64,000 nt of DNA from Cytobacillus firmus. Its GTDB lineage: Bacteria > Bacillota > Bacilli > Bacillales > Cytobacillaceae. The translations under genes were made by a program, and so were the position numbers. Location of the stretch: assembly GCF_023612095.1 (NCBI RefSeq), contig NZ_CP086235.1, forward strand, positions 1,995,501 to 2,059,500, given 5' to 3'. Shown in pieces: positions 20,515 through 28,714 of the stretch (positions are counted from its first letter, which is position 1; the number at the start of each line of letters is the position of its first letter). Below the pieces are notes generated by a model. The model worked only from the letters and a program-made list of their open reading frames with translations, was not told the origin of the DNA and searched no databases.

Positions 20515-20975
20515 TGGTAGAGTCTGAACCCGAGTCAACTTCGGCCACAGAAAGGAGGAAAACCTGGATTTGAGTCCGAACCCGAGTCAACTTCGGATAC
20601 AAACAGCAGGAAAATCTGGAATTGAGTCCGAACCCGAGTCAACTTCGGATACAACGGCAGGAAAACCTGGATCAGAGTCCGAACCCGAGTCAACTTCGGA
20701 TACAACGGCAGGAAAACCTGGATCAGAGTCTGAACCCGAGTCTGAACCCGAGTCAACTTCGGACACAGACAGCAGGAAAACCTGGATCAGAGTCTGAACT
20801 TGAGTCAACTTCGGACACAGACAGCAGGAAAACCTGGGTCAGAGTCCGAACCCGAGTCAACTTCGGACACAGACAGCAGGAAAACCTGGATCAGAGTCAG
20901 AACCCGAGTCAACTTCGGACACAGAAAGCAGAAAAACGTAGATCTGAGTCAGAACCCGGTCCAGCTTCGGAACGA
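20515..20975 (+). repeat. Array C: 52-bp tandem repeats, nine units
   Basis: CTTCGG-type cores recur with AACTTCGG at 20537, 20589, 20641, 20692, 20755, 20807, 20859, 20911 and a variant at 20963. Steps are 52 or 51 bp except one of 63, where the 12-bp sequence TCTGAACCCGAG is duplicated inside a unit. The dyad is perfect here: GTCCGAA, 11 bases, TTCGGAC. It lies in the gap between convergent genes (ends 20429 and 20994). Six-frame translation gives repetitive pseudo-ORFs on both strands that I treat as artefacts. Confidence 0.96.
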
Positions 20976-20993
20976 ATTGTAAGATTACTAGTA

Positions 20994-22220
20994 TTAAGCA
21001 ATGGTTGAAGCGGTCTTTTTCTGTTTTTGGTCTCTTTCTTGCAAAACAAATTGATCACGCCCCGCCCCGATCCCGGAAATCGTAAAGATGGCAGTTATGA
21101 CCAAAAGCAAGGCCAGCGGAATGGTCCATGACTGGAACAGGTCATATAATGAGCCGATGAGAATCGGTCCAGCTGCGGCGAGAAGGTAGCCGACGGATTG
21201 CGCCATTCCTGAAAGACTGGCAGCCTGTTTCGCATTTTCAGCACGAAGTCCGATAAGGGTTAAGGAATGGCTGATCGCAGCGCCCAGCCCAATTCCGATT
21301 AAAACGATACTGATGTTTGTGATGATGCCATTAACATTTAAAAGCAGACCTGTAAGGCCGGCAAAAGTGAAAATGCCGATTCCAAGAGCAATCCCTTTTT
21401 GGTTAGGAAGCCGGGCGGCAAGAACAGGGATAATAAAATTAACAGGAAGTCCTGAAAACTGGAGAACCGTTACCATCCATCCAGCTTCGGCGATTTCCCG
21501 TCCCTGGCTATGAAGAATTTCAGGGAGCCAGGTAGTAGCGCTGAAATAGACCATTGATTGCAATCCCATAAACAGTGTGACCTGCCAGGCGATGGGAGAG
21601 GTCCACATGGAAGACTTTGGTGCAGAAACCGCAGATACTTCCGTTTTTTTCTTCGCCATTCTGAGCTGAGGAAGCCAGACAATGATGGCAATTATGATCA
21701 GGACGGCCCATGCTCCGAGCGAGAGCCTCCAGCCCACACCAAGACCCTCAGCAAGCGGGACACTGAAACCTGGCGCAAGTCCCGCACAAATTCCCATTGA
21801 AAATGTATAAATTCCTGTCAGGAGGCCAACCTTCTGCGGGAATTTTTCCTTGACCATTCCCGGAAGAAGGACATTGCAAAGACCTACCCCTAATCCTATT
21901 AAAATAGTTCCTATGTACAGCGGAGGCAGCATTCCTGCAGAACGTGCCACAATGCCGGCTCCTAAAATCGTTAACCCCAAAAGAATGCTCCATTCACTGC
22001 CAAGCCTTTGGGCGATCCTCGGCACAAAAGGGGAGAGCAGAGCGAAGGCGACGAGCGGCAAGGTGGTCAGAAGACCTGCTGCACCATTGGAAATTCCTGT
22101 CTCATCCCGTATAGCCCCAATCAATGGCCCGACGGATGTAATCGCTGGCCGTAAATTAAATGCCACAAAGATAATGCCAGCCATTAGTAAAAGGTTTTTT
22201 GATTCCATTTTTGCTCTCAA
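20994..22220 (-). CDS. MFS transporter, CynX/NimT type
   Basis: 408 residues with 12 helices. The opening LLMAGIIFVAFNLRPAITSVGPLIGAIRDETG is typical of the CynX/NimT (cyanate or 2-nitroimidazole) branch of the major facilitator superfamily, as in B. subtilis YycB. The start is TTG 22220, six bases after GGGAGGG; the open frame extends to 22298 without a site. The true substrate is not evident. It is divergent from the marR gene at 22483, with the candidate MarR operator at 22434 in the shared region. Confidence 0.85.
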   Translation of the reverse strand: MRAKMESKNLLLMAGIIFVAFNLRPAITSVGPLIGAIRDETGISNGAAGLLTTLPLVAFALLSPFVPRIAQRLGSEWSILLGLTILGAGIVARSAGMLPPLYIGTILIGLGVGLCNVLLPGMVKEKFPQKVGLLTGIYTFSMGICAGLAPGFSVPLAEGLGVGWRLSLGAWAVLIIIAIIVWLPQLRMAKKKTEVSAVSAPKSSMWTSPIAWQVTLFMGLQSMVYFSATTWLPEILHSQGREIAEAGWMVTVLQFSGLPVNFIIPVLAARLPNQKGIALGIGIFTFAGLTGLLLNVNGIITNISIVLIGIGLGAAISHSLTLIGLRAENAKQAASLSGMAQSVGYLLAAAGPILIGSLYDLFQSWTIPLALLLVITAIFTISGIGAGRDQFVLQERDQKQKKTASTIA

Positions 22221-25184: not shown

Positions 25185-25288
25185 ATATTGTGCTTGCGGC
25201 TAAAGTTTTTAGCCGTTTTTTGTGTGGTATGACGTTGAAAAAACAGCAGCTCACCCAAAAATAGATGCCATAGTTTCACAAAAAACCA

Positions 25289-25318
25289 TTTACTTATATA
25301 AGCAAATCATTATATATT
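25289..25318 (+). promoter_or_regulatory. Probable ars operon promoter/operator
   Basis: TTTACT and TATATT are separated by 18 bp, 32 bp upstream of the arsR start. The spacer contains the AT-rich imperfect dyad ATATAAGCAAATCATTATAT, which resembles ArsR/SmtB operators. Confidence 0.5.
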
Positions 25319-25349
25319 AATATACGTGCAAAGCGGAGGTGATGAGATC

Positions 25350-25694
25350 ATGATAGGATCCACAGTCGAAATCGGCAAGGCAGCATCCATTTTAAAATTA
25401 TTAGGCGATAAAACTCGGCTCACAATGGTGAAGCTATTAAATAACCATGATTGCTGTGTATGTGAATTTGTGGAGATATTTAAAATGAGCCAGCCAGCCA
25501 TTAGCCAGCATCTCCGGAAATTGAAAGATGCCGGTGTGGTCAGGGAAAACAGGAGGGGTCAGTGGATTATTTATTCATTGAATCAGGAAAGTGACTATTA
25601 CCCGCTGGTTCAGACTGTGCTTGATCACCTTCCAAGCCAGGATTATTTATTAACAGAATTGGAAGAACAGGGACTGCGAATTTCCTGTGAGTAA
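25350..25694 (+). CDS. arsR: ArsR arsenical-responsive repressor
   Basis: 114 residues. ArsR/SmtB winged helix: [18 protein letters not shown], then the metal site CCVCEF with Cys at 35, 36 and 38, then recognition helix [17 protein letters not shown] and the wing GQWIIYSLN. As(III) or Sb(III) binding at the thiols releases DNA in this family. The ATG at 25350 follows GGAGGTGATG. It heads arsR-arsB-arsC-hesB-like, a compact same-strand operon with gaps of 14, 16 and 23 bp. Confidence 0.9.
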
Positions 25695-25708: not shown

Positions 25709-27004
25709 TTGACTCAAATAATTTTAGCATCGGTGATTTTCTTAGTCACCCTCATATTAGTCATTTGGCAGCCAAAAGGCCTGTCCATAGGCTGGTCCGC
25801 ATGCGGCGGAGCAATCCTCGCCTTAATAGCCGGTGTGGTGGATTTCAATGATGTCATAGATGTTACATCCATTGTCTGGAATGCCACATTAACCTTTATT
25901 GCCATCATCATTATATCGCTGATTTTAGATGAAATCGGGTTTTTCGAATGGGCCGCTTTACATATGGCAAGAGCGGCAAAGGGCAGCGGAGTGAAGATGT
26001 TCATTTATGTTTCCATTTTGGGAGCGGTAGTCGCAGCATTCTTTGCGAATGATGGAGCGGCACTCATTCTCACGCCAATTGTCCTTGCGATGGTGCGAAA
26101 CCTCCAATTTGAAGAAAAATTGGTTTTTCCGTTTATTATCGCAAGCGGATTTATTGCGGATACAACGTCACTGCCATTGGTCGTCAGCAACCTGGTCAAT
26201 ATCGTCTCCGCTGATTTCTTTGGCATCGGCTTTGTGGAATATGCGTCCCGCATGATTATTCCGAACTTCTTTTCACTGGGTGCCAGCATTTTGGTTTTAT
26301 TCTTATTCTTTAGAAAAAGCATACCAAAGAATTATGATTTATCTCATTTGAAAAAACCAGCAGAAGCAGTAAAAGACAGCAAAATGTTCCGATTGTCATG
26401 GCTTGTTTTAGGTATCTTATTAATGGGCTACTTTGCCAGTGAGTGGATTGGTGTCCCAGTTTCATTCATCGCAGGCATTGTAACAGTGTTCTTTCTGTTC
26501 ATGGCGCGAAGAAGCCCTGCCGTGAATACACGCACTGTCATCAAGGGTGCACCATGGGCTATCGTTTTCTTTTCGATAGGCATGTATGTAGTGGTTTACG
26601 GACTTCGAAACGCTGGTCTTACAAATGTTTTGGCAGATGTAATTCAAATGACAGCTGACCAGGGACTATTTGCAGCAACAATTGGAATGGGATTCATTGC
26701 GGCCATCCTTTCTTCTGTCATGAACAATATGCCAACCGTGATGATTGACGCTCTGGCCATTGCTGAAACCGATACAAGCGGAATCATCCGTGAAGCCCTT
26801 ATCTATGCAAACGTGATTGGATCGGATCTAGGCCCGAAAATTACGCCGATTGGGTCCCTCGCAACTTTACTGTGGCTTCATGTCTTGTCCCTGAAGGGAG
26901 TAAAAATCTCATGGGGAACGTACTTTAAAACTGGGATCATCCTAACGATTCCAACACTGTTCATCACATTAACCGGATTGTACATTTGGCTAATGATTAT
27001 CTAA
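25709..27004 (+). CDS. arsB: ArsB arsenite efflux permease
   Basis: 431 residues with about 12 helices. Diagnostic ArsB stretches include [52 protein letters not shown] and [21 protein letters not shown], close to the E. coli ArsB pattern and unlike the Acr3 type found in the B. subtilis skin element. It exports arsenite or antimonite by proton antiport. It starts at TTG 25709 after AGAGGGGG. Confidence 0.93.
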
Positions 27005-27020: not shown

Positions 27021-27440
27021 ATGACTAAAAAAACGATCTACTTCCTATGCACAGGCAACTCATGCCGCAGCCAGATGGCAGAAGGATGGGCAAAACAGCA
27101 TTTAGGTGAAGAATGGAATGTTTATAGTGCAGGGATTGAAGCACATGGCTTGAATCCGAACGCTGTAAAAGCAATGAAGGAAGCTGGAATTGACATCTCG
27201 AATCAGACTTCTGATATCATTGATCCTGAGATTCTAAATAATGCCGACTTGGTTGTAACGCTTTGCGGCGATGCAGCGGATAAATGCCCAATGACACCTC
27301 CACATGTAAAGCGCGAGCATTGGGGATTTGATGATCCTGCGAAAGCAGAAGGGACAGAAGAAGAAAAATGGGCTTTCTTCCAGCGTGTACGGGATGAAAT
27401 CGGCGGCAGGATTAAATCATTTGCCGAAACGGGAAAATAA
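27021..27440 (+). CDS. arsC: Arsenate reductase, thioredoxin-coupled
   Basis: 139 residues. The low-molecular-weight phosphatase-like loop CTGNSCRS places the catalytic Cys at 10. The redox relay cysteines are C82 and C89 in [11 protein letters not shown], as in S. aureus pI258 and B. subtilis ArsC. It reduces arsenate to arsenite for ArsB with electrons from thioredoxin. AAAAGGAG is seven bases before the ATG. Confidence 0.95.
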
Positions 27441-27463
27441 ACATTTAAAGGGAGGGAACAGAT

Positions 27464-27742
27464 TTGATTATCACAGATAATGCGCGTGACGAATTAAGAA
27501 AAATGCTGGAAGAGCAAAATGCCAGCTGCGTCCGCATCTTTTTTGAAGGCTATGGCTGAGGACAGCCAAGAATAGGACTGGCTCTGGATGAGCCGGAAGC
27601 AGATGATATTATTGTCACAATCAATGAAATCAAAGTAGCAATCGACCCGATTATTGAACCAAACACCGAAGACCTTGTTTTAGAGCGGAGCGGTAACGGA
27701 AGCGGGATCTCGATGATCGGGAATACAGGAAGATGCTGTTAG
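27464..27742 (+). CDS. HesB-like protein with in-frame UGA, candidate selenoprotein
   Basis: A TTG at 27464 follows AAAGGGAGGG by seven bases and opens 31 codons to a TGA at 27557-27559. The same frame then continues for 60 codons to a TAG at 27740. Around the TGA the protein reads IFFEGYG-U-GQPRIGLALDEPE. In HesB-like selenoproteins the Sec, or Cys in homologues, sits exactly in such a GYG-x-G-P-x-x-GLAL context. Other cysteines are C22 and a terminal C91-C92. A hairpin with a G-containing apical loop lies 18-37 bases after the UGA. Read through, it is a 92-residue IscA/HesB-type protein in the ars operon. If UGA is not decoded, the gene is a pseudogene. Confidence 0.72.
27578..27596 (+). 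promoter_or_regulatory. Candidate bacterial SECIS hairpin
   Basis: The bases after the UGA fold into a 7-bp stem (CTGGCTC with GAGCCGG, one G-U pair) closing the loop TGGAT. The loop begins 26 bases after the UGA and has G at positions two and three, as expected of bacterial SelB-binding elements. The stem also encodes the conserved LALDEP, so part of the pairing could be coincidence. Confidence 0.5.
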
Positions 27743-27770
27743 GAAAAGGCCTTTAGGGGTCTTTTTATTT
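27743..27770 (+). terminator. Terminator of the ars operon
   Basis: AAAAGGCC pairs with GGGTCTTTT (one G-U) around TTTA, and a T-rich stretch follows. It stands right after the HesB-like TAG, which supports that stop as the true gene end. Confidence 0.65.
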
Positions 27771-27835: not shown

Positions 27836-28204
27836 ATGTTGTTGTATTACACTTATACTCCTTATGGGCATCACTTTAACAGAGGACATGTGAATCATCA
27901 GGCTTTTCCAAATACCAGCAGACAGAGAGCAGGCTTTTCCAAAGAAGAGGCCGCAGCCATTGCGCTGCTATTGGGAATCGATTTTACGAAAACCCGGTTT
28001 GATCTGAATGAATTCTGGATGGGCGTTAATACAGAACTGGAGCATGGAAAACGATCAAGCCAAACGAATGTTACTGGCGATGATCCGCTACTTACAGGGA
28101 AAATTGCCATGGCACATCTTAACGAGTTTCCTGACTATTATAAGCGATTAAAAGTTTTGGAAGCGGAAGCTAAGGCCTATTGGAATACATTGCAGCAAGG
28201 CTGA
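27836..28204 (+). CDS. DUF5661-like protein
   Basis: 122 residues. The segment GFSKEEAAAIALLLGIDFTKTRFDLNEFWMGVNTELEHG, followed by TNVTGDDPLLTGKIAMAHLNEFPDYYKRL, matches what I know of DUF5661, a small family of unknown function. The N-terminus (YYTYTPYGHHFNRGHVNH) is rich in His and Tyr. GGAGAGG stands close to the ATG; TTG at 27839 is an equal candidate start. Monocistronic, with a terminator behind it. Confidence 0.65.
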   Translation: MLLYYTYTPYGHHFNRGHVNHQAFPNTSRQRAGFSKEEAAAIALLLGIDFTKTRFDLNEFWMGVNTELEHGKRSSQTNVTGDDPLLTGKIAMAHLNEFPDYYKRLKVLEAEAKAYWNTLQQG

Positions 28205-28267: not shown

Positions 28268-28310
28268 TTATGCTGCCGGGGCGGCTGGGATGGCGCGTGC
28301 TTGAGGTTTG

Positions 28311-28600
28311 GCGTTTTATCTAACAGGTTTTGGAGTTTATCTAGCATGTTGTGAGTTTTATCTAACAGGATTATGAATTTATCTAACAGGTTTTTTGATT
28401 TTCTTGCATGTTTTGGAGTTTATCTTACATTTAGAACAATTCGTCTTTACGGAGAAGAAATCGACTATGAAAACAGAGGGCGAGATGAGGAATGTTGCAT
28501 ATAATTTGATTCTGGCGCATATAGCATGAAAGTGACGCATATCTGTGCCAAAGTGAAGCATATCCAGAAAAAGTGACGCATAACTGCAATTTTCAATAAA
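28311..28600 (+). repeat. Array E: short repeats with ~21-bp spacing
   Basis: Two runs. TTTATCT (unit like TTTATCTAACAGGTTTTGGAG) recurs at 28315, 28336, 28357, 28378, a degenerate copy near 28399, and 28419, giving steps of 20-21 bp. Then GCAT of AGTGACGCATA-like units recurs at 28517, 28537, 28558 and 28578, steps of 20-21 bp. It lies in the gap between the convergent genes ending at 28204 and 28742. No gene is visible between 28267 and 28637. Confidence 0.85.
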
Positions 28601-28671: not shown

Positions 28672-28673
28672 GT

Positions 28674-28714
28674 GCCCGGCAACGTCCTACTCTCACAGGG
28701 GGACAGCCCCAAAC
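28674..28714 (-). pseudogene. 5S rRNA 3'-end remnant
   Basis: Read on the minus strand, the segment ends with CCCCCTGTGAGAGTAGGACG followed by TTGCCGGGC, which is the conserved 3' end of Bacillus 5S rRNA. The homology covers about 40 bases; the 5' two thirds of the gene are missing and are replaced by the end of the small membrane gene at 28742. It is not a functional 5S gene, but it still carries a terminator behind it. Confidence 0.85.

Follow-up and report, generated by a model that had tools for sequence, protein, structure and literature searches.

A predicted HesB-like selenoprotein gene recurring in arsenic resistance operons of Cytobacillus firmus and related bacteria

A stretch of 64,000 nucleotides (nt) from Cytobacillus firmus (assembly GCF_023612095.1, contig NZ_CP086235.1, positions 1,995,501 to 2,059,500; hereafter the window) carries an arsenic resistance (ars) operon, arsR-arsB-arsC, followed 23 nt downstream on the same strand by a fourth gene, here called hesB(U), with an in-frame UGA. 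Relatives retain this UGA at the corresponding position, along with a conserved hairpin, so that its decoding as selenocysteine (Sec) is very likely; the case is built on sequence comparison. The complete reading, in which hesB(U) is a fourth ars gene and encodes a selenoprotein of 92 residues with a predicted IscA fold that holds arsenite, has in our estimate an even chance of being correct. The coordinates are given in Table 1.

A preliminary description of this DNA, made from the letters alone, had proposed a candidate selenoprotein gene with a well-placed TTG start, a TGA at codon 32 within GYG-U-GQPRIGLAL and 60 further codons before a TAG, in an arsR-arsB-arsC setting. All these elements are confirmed (the TAG lies at 27740-27742) and the three upstream proteins score above their curated cut-offs. 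Purine-rich stretches similar to AAAGGGAGGG precede the start in most of the hesB genes compared. Shared strand, short gaps and a terminator-like site on its 3' side place hesB(U) within the operon. The selenoprotein reading itself is supported by the comparisons below.

The genus of the window is represented by 36 genomes (referred to below as Cytobacillus), in which all 14 full-length close copies, the window gene included, contain exactly one TGA, at codon 32. None has a cysteine codon there; Cys codons in all close relatives would, according to the preliminary description, have refuted its proposal. A wider set of 63 distinct genes, again with the window gene, has TGA in 59, TGC in two (L050, L051), TGT in one (L048) and TAA in one; a copy on a Priestia plasmid also has Cys at the Sec position. 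This set (loci L026-L129 minus L056-L059) comprises best matches and chosen places and is part of all matches; matches covering at most 55 query residues, such as a split gene in genome G008, were dropped and identical sequences were merged. Matches listed from outside the family are mixed: of 72, 58 carry a single TGA and 14 are free of stops. The TAA gene (L126, near 5088, genome G045) retains an intact hairpin and belongs to an ars cluster whose arsD and arsA are shortened; either it is partway through decay or the sequence contains an error. Six database proteins (92-94 residues) have tryptophan at this position. They were taken as code 4 gene calls, and decoding of UGA as tryptophan was rejected.

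The codons beyond the UGA are under purifying selection. The ratio of nonsynonymous to synonymous substitution rates (dN/dS), computed from the 38 close genes whose length is exactly 92 codons, is 0.171 ahead of the UGA. It falls to 0.104 for codons +1 to +45, and for the part beyond the hairpin (codons +17 to +45) it is 0.072. A tRNA-Sec is found in 117 of the 118 genomes of the family with a HesB match (E <= 1e-18) against 54 of the 75 without one (p 5e-9, uncorrected for relatedness). The 118 genomes include one Cys form (G004) and the TAA form of G045, the codon having been inspected in part of the matches. The sole exception is G171, in which no tRNA-Sec was detected. Its copy (L131 4901-5320) has lost the N-terminus and retains both UGA and hairpin; it is likely a relic of lost Sec use.

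The preliminary description had also noted a 7-bp hairpin with a G-bearing loop, resembling a bacterial selenocysteine insertion sequence (SECIS). This hairpin, CUGGCUC-UGGAU-GAGCCGG, was recovered at nt 19-37 past the UGA. A recent review gives limits for bacterial SECIS elements on size (apical loop 3-9 nt, upper stem 4-16 bp; PMC13188914, Figure 2 legend), on loop sequence (a G at position 1, position 2 or both), on UGA-to-loop distance (16-37 nt) and on minimum free energy (at most -7.5 kcal/mol) (PMC13188914). The hairpin falls within all four (5-nt loop and 7-bp stem; UGGAU; 25 nt; -12.2 kcal/mol). None of 200 shuffles folds as well as the 25-nt piece containing it, from which the energy was computed; the 60 nt from the UGA, taken whole, do not fold unusually well (z -0.97). 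The finer loop pattern of most members, an N1-N2 pair flanking G[G/U]N, is not fully matched, the two positions being U and U. An Rfam search up to E 10 returned no SECIS family. A match to CsrB (22.6 bits, cut-off 71, E 0.00018) was taken as chance.

The helix is conserved as a helix. Across 52 distinct aligned segments 97.5% of the 364 pair cells are paired, against only 16-44% in registers shifted by 1-3 nt. Changes on both sides occur in four of the seven pairs, and the covariation score was reached by no shuffle. As the preliminary description had cautioned, part of the hairpin encodes conserved residues. A hairpin arising as a by-product of these residues is ruled out, however, because three genes (L071, L072 and L076) replace LALDEP by LRLDGV, LRLNGV and LSLDGS and yet keep all seven pairs (G-U counted), whereas the TGT gene L048 keeps the LDEP residues and its helix is down to 4 pairs. 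The helix is reduced to 2 pairs in the TGC genes; among TGA genes, shortening is confined to five with 6 pairs and two with 5. Synonymous choice inside the helix is frozen (GCT in 56/56, CTG in 59/59, GAG in 55/55), and most outside codons vary. Since some codons outside are frozen too (GGC before the UGA, 58/58; CAG at +2, 42/42; TTT at -2, 31/31; AGA at +58, 31/31), the frozen block is more than the helix alone. Under a codon null model applied to genes singly, the number of pairs is not rare in 5 of 59 (probability 0.17-0.35).

Sec insertion presupposes the sel genes, to which the preliminary description had pointed, and these were found with one reservation. The genome has a tRNA-Sec (59.7 bits, cut-off 47; also called SeC by ARAGORN), SelA (544.7 bits) and SelD (422 bits). 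The SelD match is itself interrupted by an in-frame TGA, located at codon 11 (L019 from 1501), with a hairpin after it, and SelD is therefore a predicted selenoprotein too. SelB is above cut-off but lies in two frames of 388 and 238 codons (L023 4207-4215; G000:C1 at about 2690.2 kb). Compared with the relative G007, the selB coding region differs by one single-base gap, and SelB is free of stops in all 32 other Cytobacillus genomes with a match. The break is either a sequencing error or a real loss. Four Cytobacillus genomes have no tRNA-Sec match. One of them (G022) has an unbroken SelB; its tRNA-Sec may have escaped detection or fallen into a gap of the draft, or the loss may be partial.

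The encoded protein is a divergent member of its family. The best NCBIfam model is TIGR01911 (HesB_rel_seleno), with 48.1 bits against a cut-off of 66.35; the same model matches all 13 members scanned. The Sec motif of the window protein is UGQP, and the genome's own paralogue L054 has UGGP. A 2026 review gives the motif of HesB-like selenoproteins as UxGP (PMC13188914). The preliminary description was thus right that HesB-like selenoproteins are a known family, but its claim that the Sec lies in exactly the known context was loose. Pfam at 1e-3 gives no match. Up to E 1 the only one is PF01521 (Fe-S_biosyn), at 19.0 bits against a cut-off of 26.3, a threshold exceeded by two UGA-type paralogues. 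U32 aligns with the Cys of GGCSG in the IscA relative 1nwb, and the structure model matches the IscA/SufA-like fold of A-type carriers. These carriers (IscA, SufA, ErpA) have three cluster cysteines, the last two arranged as CxC. Here the pattern is instead U32, C91 and C92, with adjacent cysteines at the very end, as in 56 of the 59 TGA-type genes. The genome contains a second UGA-type HesB (G000:C1:3540024-3540296; L119 5007-5276, minus strand), 54% identical and with a UGGP motif, outside any ars cluster. Judging from their sequence, its neighbours look like rhodanese and TusA genes.

Genes of the hesB(U) type recur in ars operons of Bacillaceae in two arrangements. The first comprises 43 genes in the family, 63-99% identical to the window protein at the protein level (not counted are the G008 gene, which is split and likewise lies behind arsC, the partial G158 copy and the relic of G171). 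A same-strand arsC lies upstream in 29 of them (13 in Cytobacillus, 16 elsewhere) and arsC remnants in two; a phosphatase gene intervenes in G107 and arsC is in two pieces in G141. The 16 arsC-linked genes outside Cytobacillus are associated with an ACR3 permease (7), ArsB (5) or an unassigned permease (4). In the second arrangement (about 50-58% identity), many of the loci examined have the gene behind arsD-arsA, in some cases together with trxB and a gene for a dual-specificity phosphatase; other HesB genes in this identity range have no ars neighbours. One such long cluster, arsR-B-C-D-A-trxB-phosphatase, precedes a UGA-type gene on plasmid pBO1 of C. oceanisediminis 2691 (L181 5444-5851). 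No gene is listed over it, nor is one listed at the hesB(U) site in any of five matching Cytobacillus plasmid records, the gene tables being incomplete by design. The gene may be easily overlooked, since gene callers stop at the UGA.

Seen from the reductase, the 43 arsC genes (E <= 1e-55) in 35 Cytobacillus genomes have an intact UGA-type gene within 150 nt downstream in 13 cases, the split one in one, and a copy within 6 kb in 11, so that 24 in all have an intact copy at most 6 kb downstream. A Cys form is near arsC in three, and 15 have no such gene. Five of the 43 arsC genes come from the four genomes in which tRNA-Sec had no match; four of these five have no such gene and one has the Cys form. 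In a poorly resolved tree, the arsC-adjacent label changes 9 times against a shuffled mean of 20.9, and the ars-cluster label 4 times against 11.3; near-copies in the tree favour such clustering. A link to arsenic handling, as had been proposed in the preliminary description, is suggested by this recurring operon position. In genome G006 (L122/L065) hesB(U) is intact and only pieces of arsB and arsC lie upstream.

How such a protein might act can be sketched. Arsenite would relieve ArsR, and the four genes would be co-transcribed. SelB would read the hairpin and Sec would be inserted at codon 32. The folded protein would gather Se32, S91 and S92 into a soft three-ligand As(III) site, and the As(III) made by ArsC would be passed to ArsB (to ArsA/ArsD in longer operons), as a metallochaperone would do. 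The affinity of selenolate for As(III) is strong. Binding of arsenite through U32 and the two C-terminal cysteines is conceivable, with somewhat less than an even chance. The generalisation to a selenium-dependent branch of arsenic efflux in Bacillaceae, in which an IscA-fold selenoprotein with a selenolate and a CC end hands the ArsC product to ArsB/ACR3 or ArsA pumps, is more tentative and rather unlikely. ArsD, which holds As(III) by three soft ligands, offers an analogy: it too is a small ars-operon protein (NF033727), and hesB(U) would work in a similar way, although no sequence relationship is claimed. As both co-occur in the longer clusters, hesB(U) is not a simple replacement of ArsD.

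Several observations weigh against this picture. The compensating changes in the hairpin come from only three of the 52 sequences (L071, L072, L076), two of which are sisters in the tree. Since selB is frame-broken in the assembly, the protein may be missing from this isolate, and would be if the break is real. The modelled tail has a predicted local distance difference test score (pLDDT) below 50, and only two of five models exceed 70; the three-ligand site is therefore not visible in the model. Eleven arsC genes in tRNA-Sec-bearing Cytobacillus genomes are without any such gene, so hesB(U) is not essential to ars operons. Conversely, 12 of the 43 close-type genes have neither arsC nor arsC remnants alongside, 21 of the 49 Cytobacillus HesB genes lie outside intact arsC clusters (one of them beside arsB/arsC remnants), and three relatives outside the family with 65-67% identity (L144-L146) show none of the ars genes within the 1.5 kb covered upstream. 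Copies that stand apart from ars clusters, as one does in this genome, speak for a more general role with thiophilic ligands, which ars operons would have recruited.

The main rival to arsenite holding is a role as an A-type Fe-S carrier, by which iron-sulfur clusters would be replaced or repaired when arsenite causes stress. The predicted IscA/SufA fold, the position of U32 at the conserved cysteine of the IscA family and Fe-S_biosyn as the only Pfam match, over cut-off in the two paralogues, all agree with it. However, CxC is replaced by the terminal CC, the protein itself stays under the Pfam cut-off, and the remaining operon genes are arsR, arsB and arsC; we regard such a carrier as unlikely, though a serious contender. 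A HesB of general sulfur/selenium or metal handling that sits in ars operons by chance, with no arsenic role, would suit both the second UGA-type HesB among rhodanese/TusA-like genes and the 12 close-type genes without ars neighbours. It is improbable given that the ars setting recurs in both arrangements and alongside two permease families, in chromosomal as well as plasmid copies and for Sec and Cys forms, and that the two labels change far less often than in shuffles (with the caution about resolution and near-copies given above).

Still less probable is a Sec-based reductant, in which a selenosulfide between U32 and the Cys tail would reduce ArsC or arsenate, replacing or assisting thioredoxin. 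ArsC is here of the thioredoxin-dependent type, and the review cited above deems most uncharacterized selenoproteins likely redox proteins (PMC13188914), but the fold matches IscA-like rather than thioredoxin-like proteins and the sequence has no UxxC or CxxU motif. Finally, a plain nonsense mutation of a Cys codon with a dead downstream frame, the alternative raised in the preliminary description, is barely credible: the broken selB, the TAA of L126 beside shortened arsD/arsA and the cut copy in a genome without detected tRNA-Sec would fit it, but TGA conservation, dN/dS past the UGA and hairpin covariation rule out a nonsense mutation or pseudogene at the family level and leave the decayed cases as exceptions.

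HesB-like selenoproteins are an established family (PMC13188914, PMC9312934, PMC1794560), and a database protein 78% identical to hesB(U) (P0003) is already named 'HesB-like selenoprotein' by its Joint Genome Institute (JGI) source. The gene product resembles this family (TIGR01911; NF038090, IscA_HesB_Se) in its best model, in-frame UGA and downstream SECIS-type hairpin; it differs in its score below the TIGR01911 cut-off, its UGQP motif and its ars-operon setting. A HesB homologue in an ars operon is likewise on record: in the ars1 operon arsRYCDATorf7orf8 of Bacillus sp. CDB3, the HesB-like orf7 lies beside a dual-specificity phosphatase gene (PMC4562236, PMC5481582), a gene set resembling the longer clusters described here. 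The passages on it in these two papers do not term orf7 a selenoprotein, and the window operon is a short arsRBC-hesB form. The HesB of the Priestia ars plasmid (WP_047751966.1, annotated 'adhesin'; L182 4495-4779) is 39% identical, follows arsC-D-A-phosphatase and has the CC end; it differs by a GCCGP motif with Cys in place of Sec. Other selenoproteins linked to arsenic, namely arsenite methyltransferases (NF041536, NF041537), ArsC-type proteins and SaoC with its Cys-Cys-COOH end, share the use of selenium in metalloid-related proteins and are set apart there as other families (PMC13188914). Among the papers listed in a search of the open-licence PubMed Central (PMC) literature, which leaves subscription journals uncovered, none was seen to connect HesB selenoproteins with ars operons; literature on IscA and arsenite contributed nothing further. 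The combination of a divergent Sec protein, a predicted IscA fold, a Cys-Cys end and recurrence in ars operons of Bacillaceae, in two arrangements, appears to be new.

If this is correct, a detoxification operon known from textbooks would be linked to the supply of selenium, and the ars operons bearing hesB(U) in Cytobacillus, Neobacillus and relatives would be fully working only with selenium. The finding also brings to light a gene that tends to be missed in annotation. The natural Sec and Cys versions found in ars operons allow one to ask what selenium adds to metalloid binding.

Table 1. Coordinates of the ars operon features (positions within the window)
Feature	Position	Strand	Remark
Candidate ArsR operator: imperfect palindrome with weak promoter-like site	25275..25320		Consensus/repeat match, weak
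arsR, metalloregulator	25350..25694	+	NF033788, 95.1 bits (cut-off 55)
arsB, arsenite efflux permease	25709..27004	+	TIGR00935, 752.6 bits (cut-off 415)
arsC, thioredoxin-type arsenate reductase	27021..27440	+	TIGR02691, 242.1 bits (cut-off 174.3)
Ribosome-binding site AAAGGGAGGG	27447..27456	+	Before the TTG start
hesB(U), predicted IscA/HesB-like selenoprotein gene, 92 codons	27464..27742	+	Fourth and last operon gene
UGA codon 32, predicted Sec, within GYG-U-GQPRIGLAL	27557..27559	+	TGA in 59/63 distinct genes
SECIS-type hairpin	27578..27596	+	7-bp stem, UGGAU loop, UGA-to-loop 25 nt
Codons of C-terminal Cys91-Cys92	27734..27739	+	CC end in 56/59 TGA-type genes
Terminator-like hairpin directly 3' of the hesB stop	27743..27766	+	10 pairs, T tail

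The arsR start codon is our choice, the longest open reading frame (ORF) beginning at 25326. The promoter-like site TTTACT-18-TATATT (25289-25318) overlaps the palindrome, which is 71% complementary. Ten promoter-like sites were found, against a shuffle mean of 6.7, and five terminator-like sites in the region against 2.6.

On the 3' side of the terminator-like site, a gene for a DUF5661 protein (27836-28204; PF18905, 61 bits) also follows hesB in 9 of the 14 close Cytobacillus loci, one locus stopping at a contig edge. Elsewhere in the window, positions 20535-21008, between two genes, contain repeated short phrases, with ORFs carrying SPNPSQLRIQ / ESEPEST-like repeats on both strands. Positions 28300-28600 and 28673-28710 cover repeats of the phrases TTTATCTAACAGG and GTGACGCATATC and, after these, a stretch that resembles a 5S rRNA end in reverse complement.
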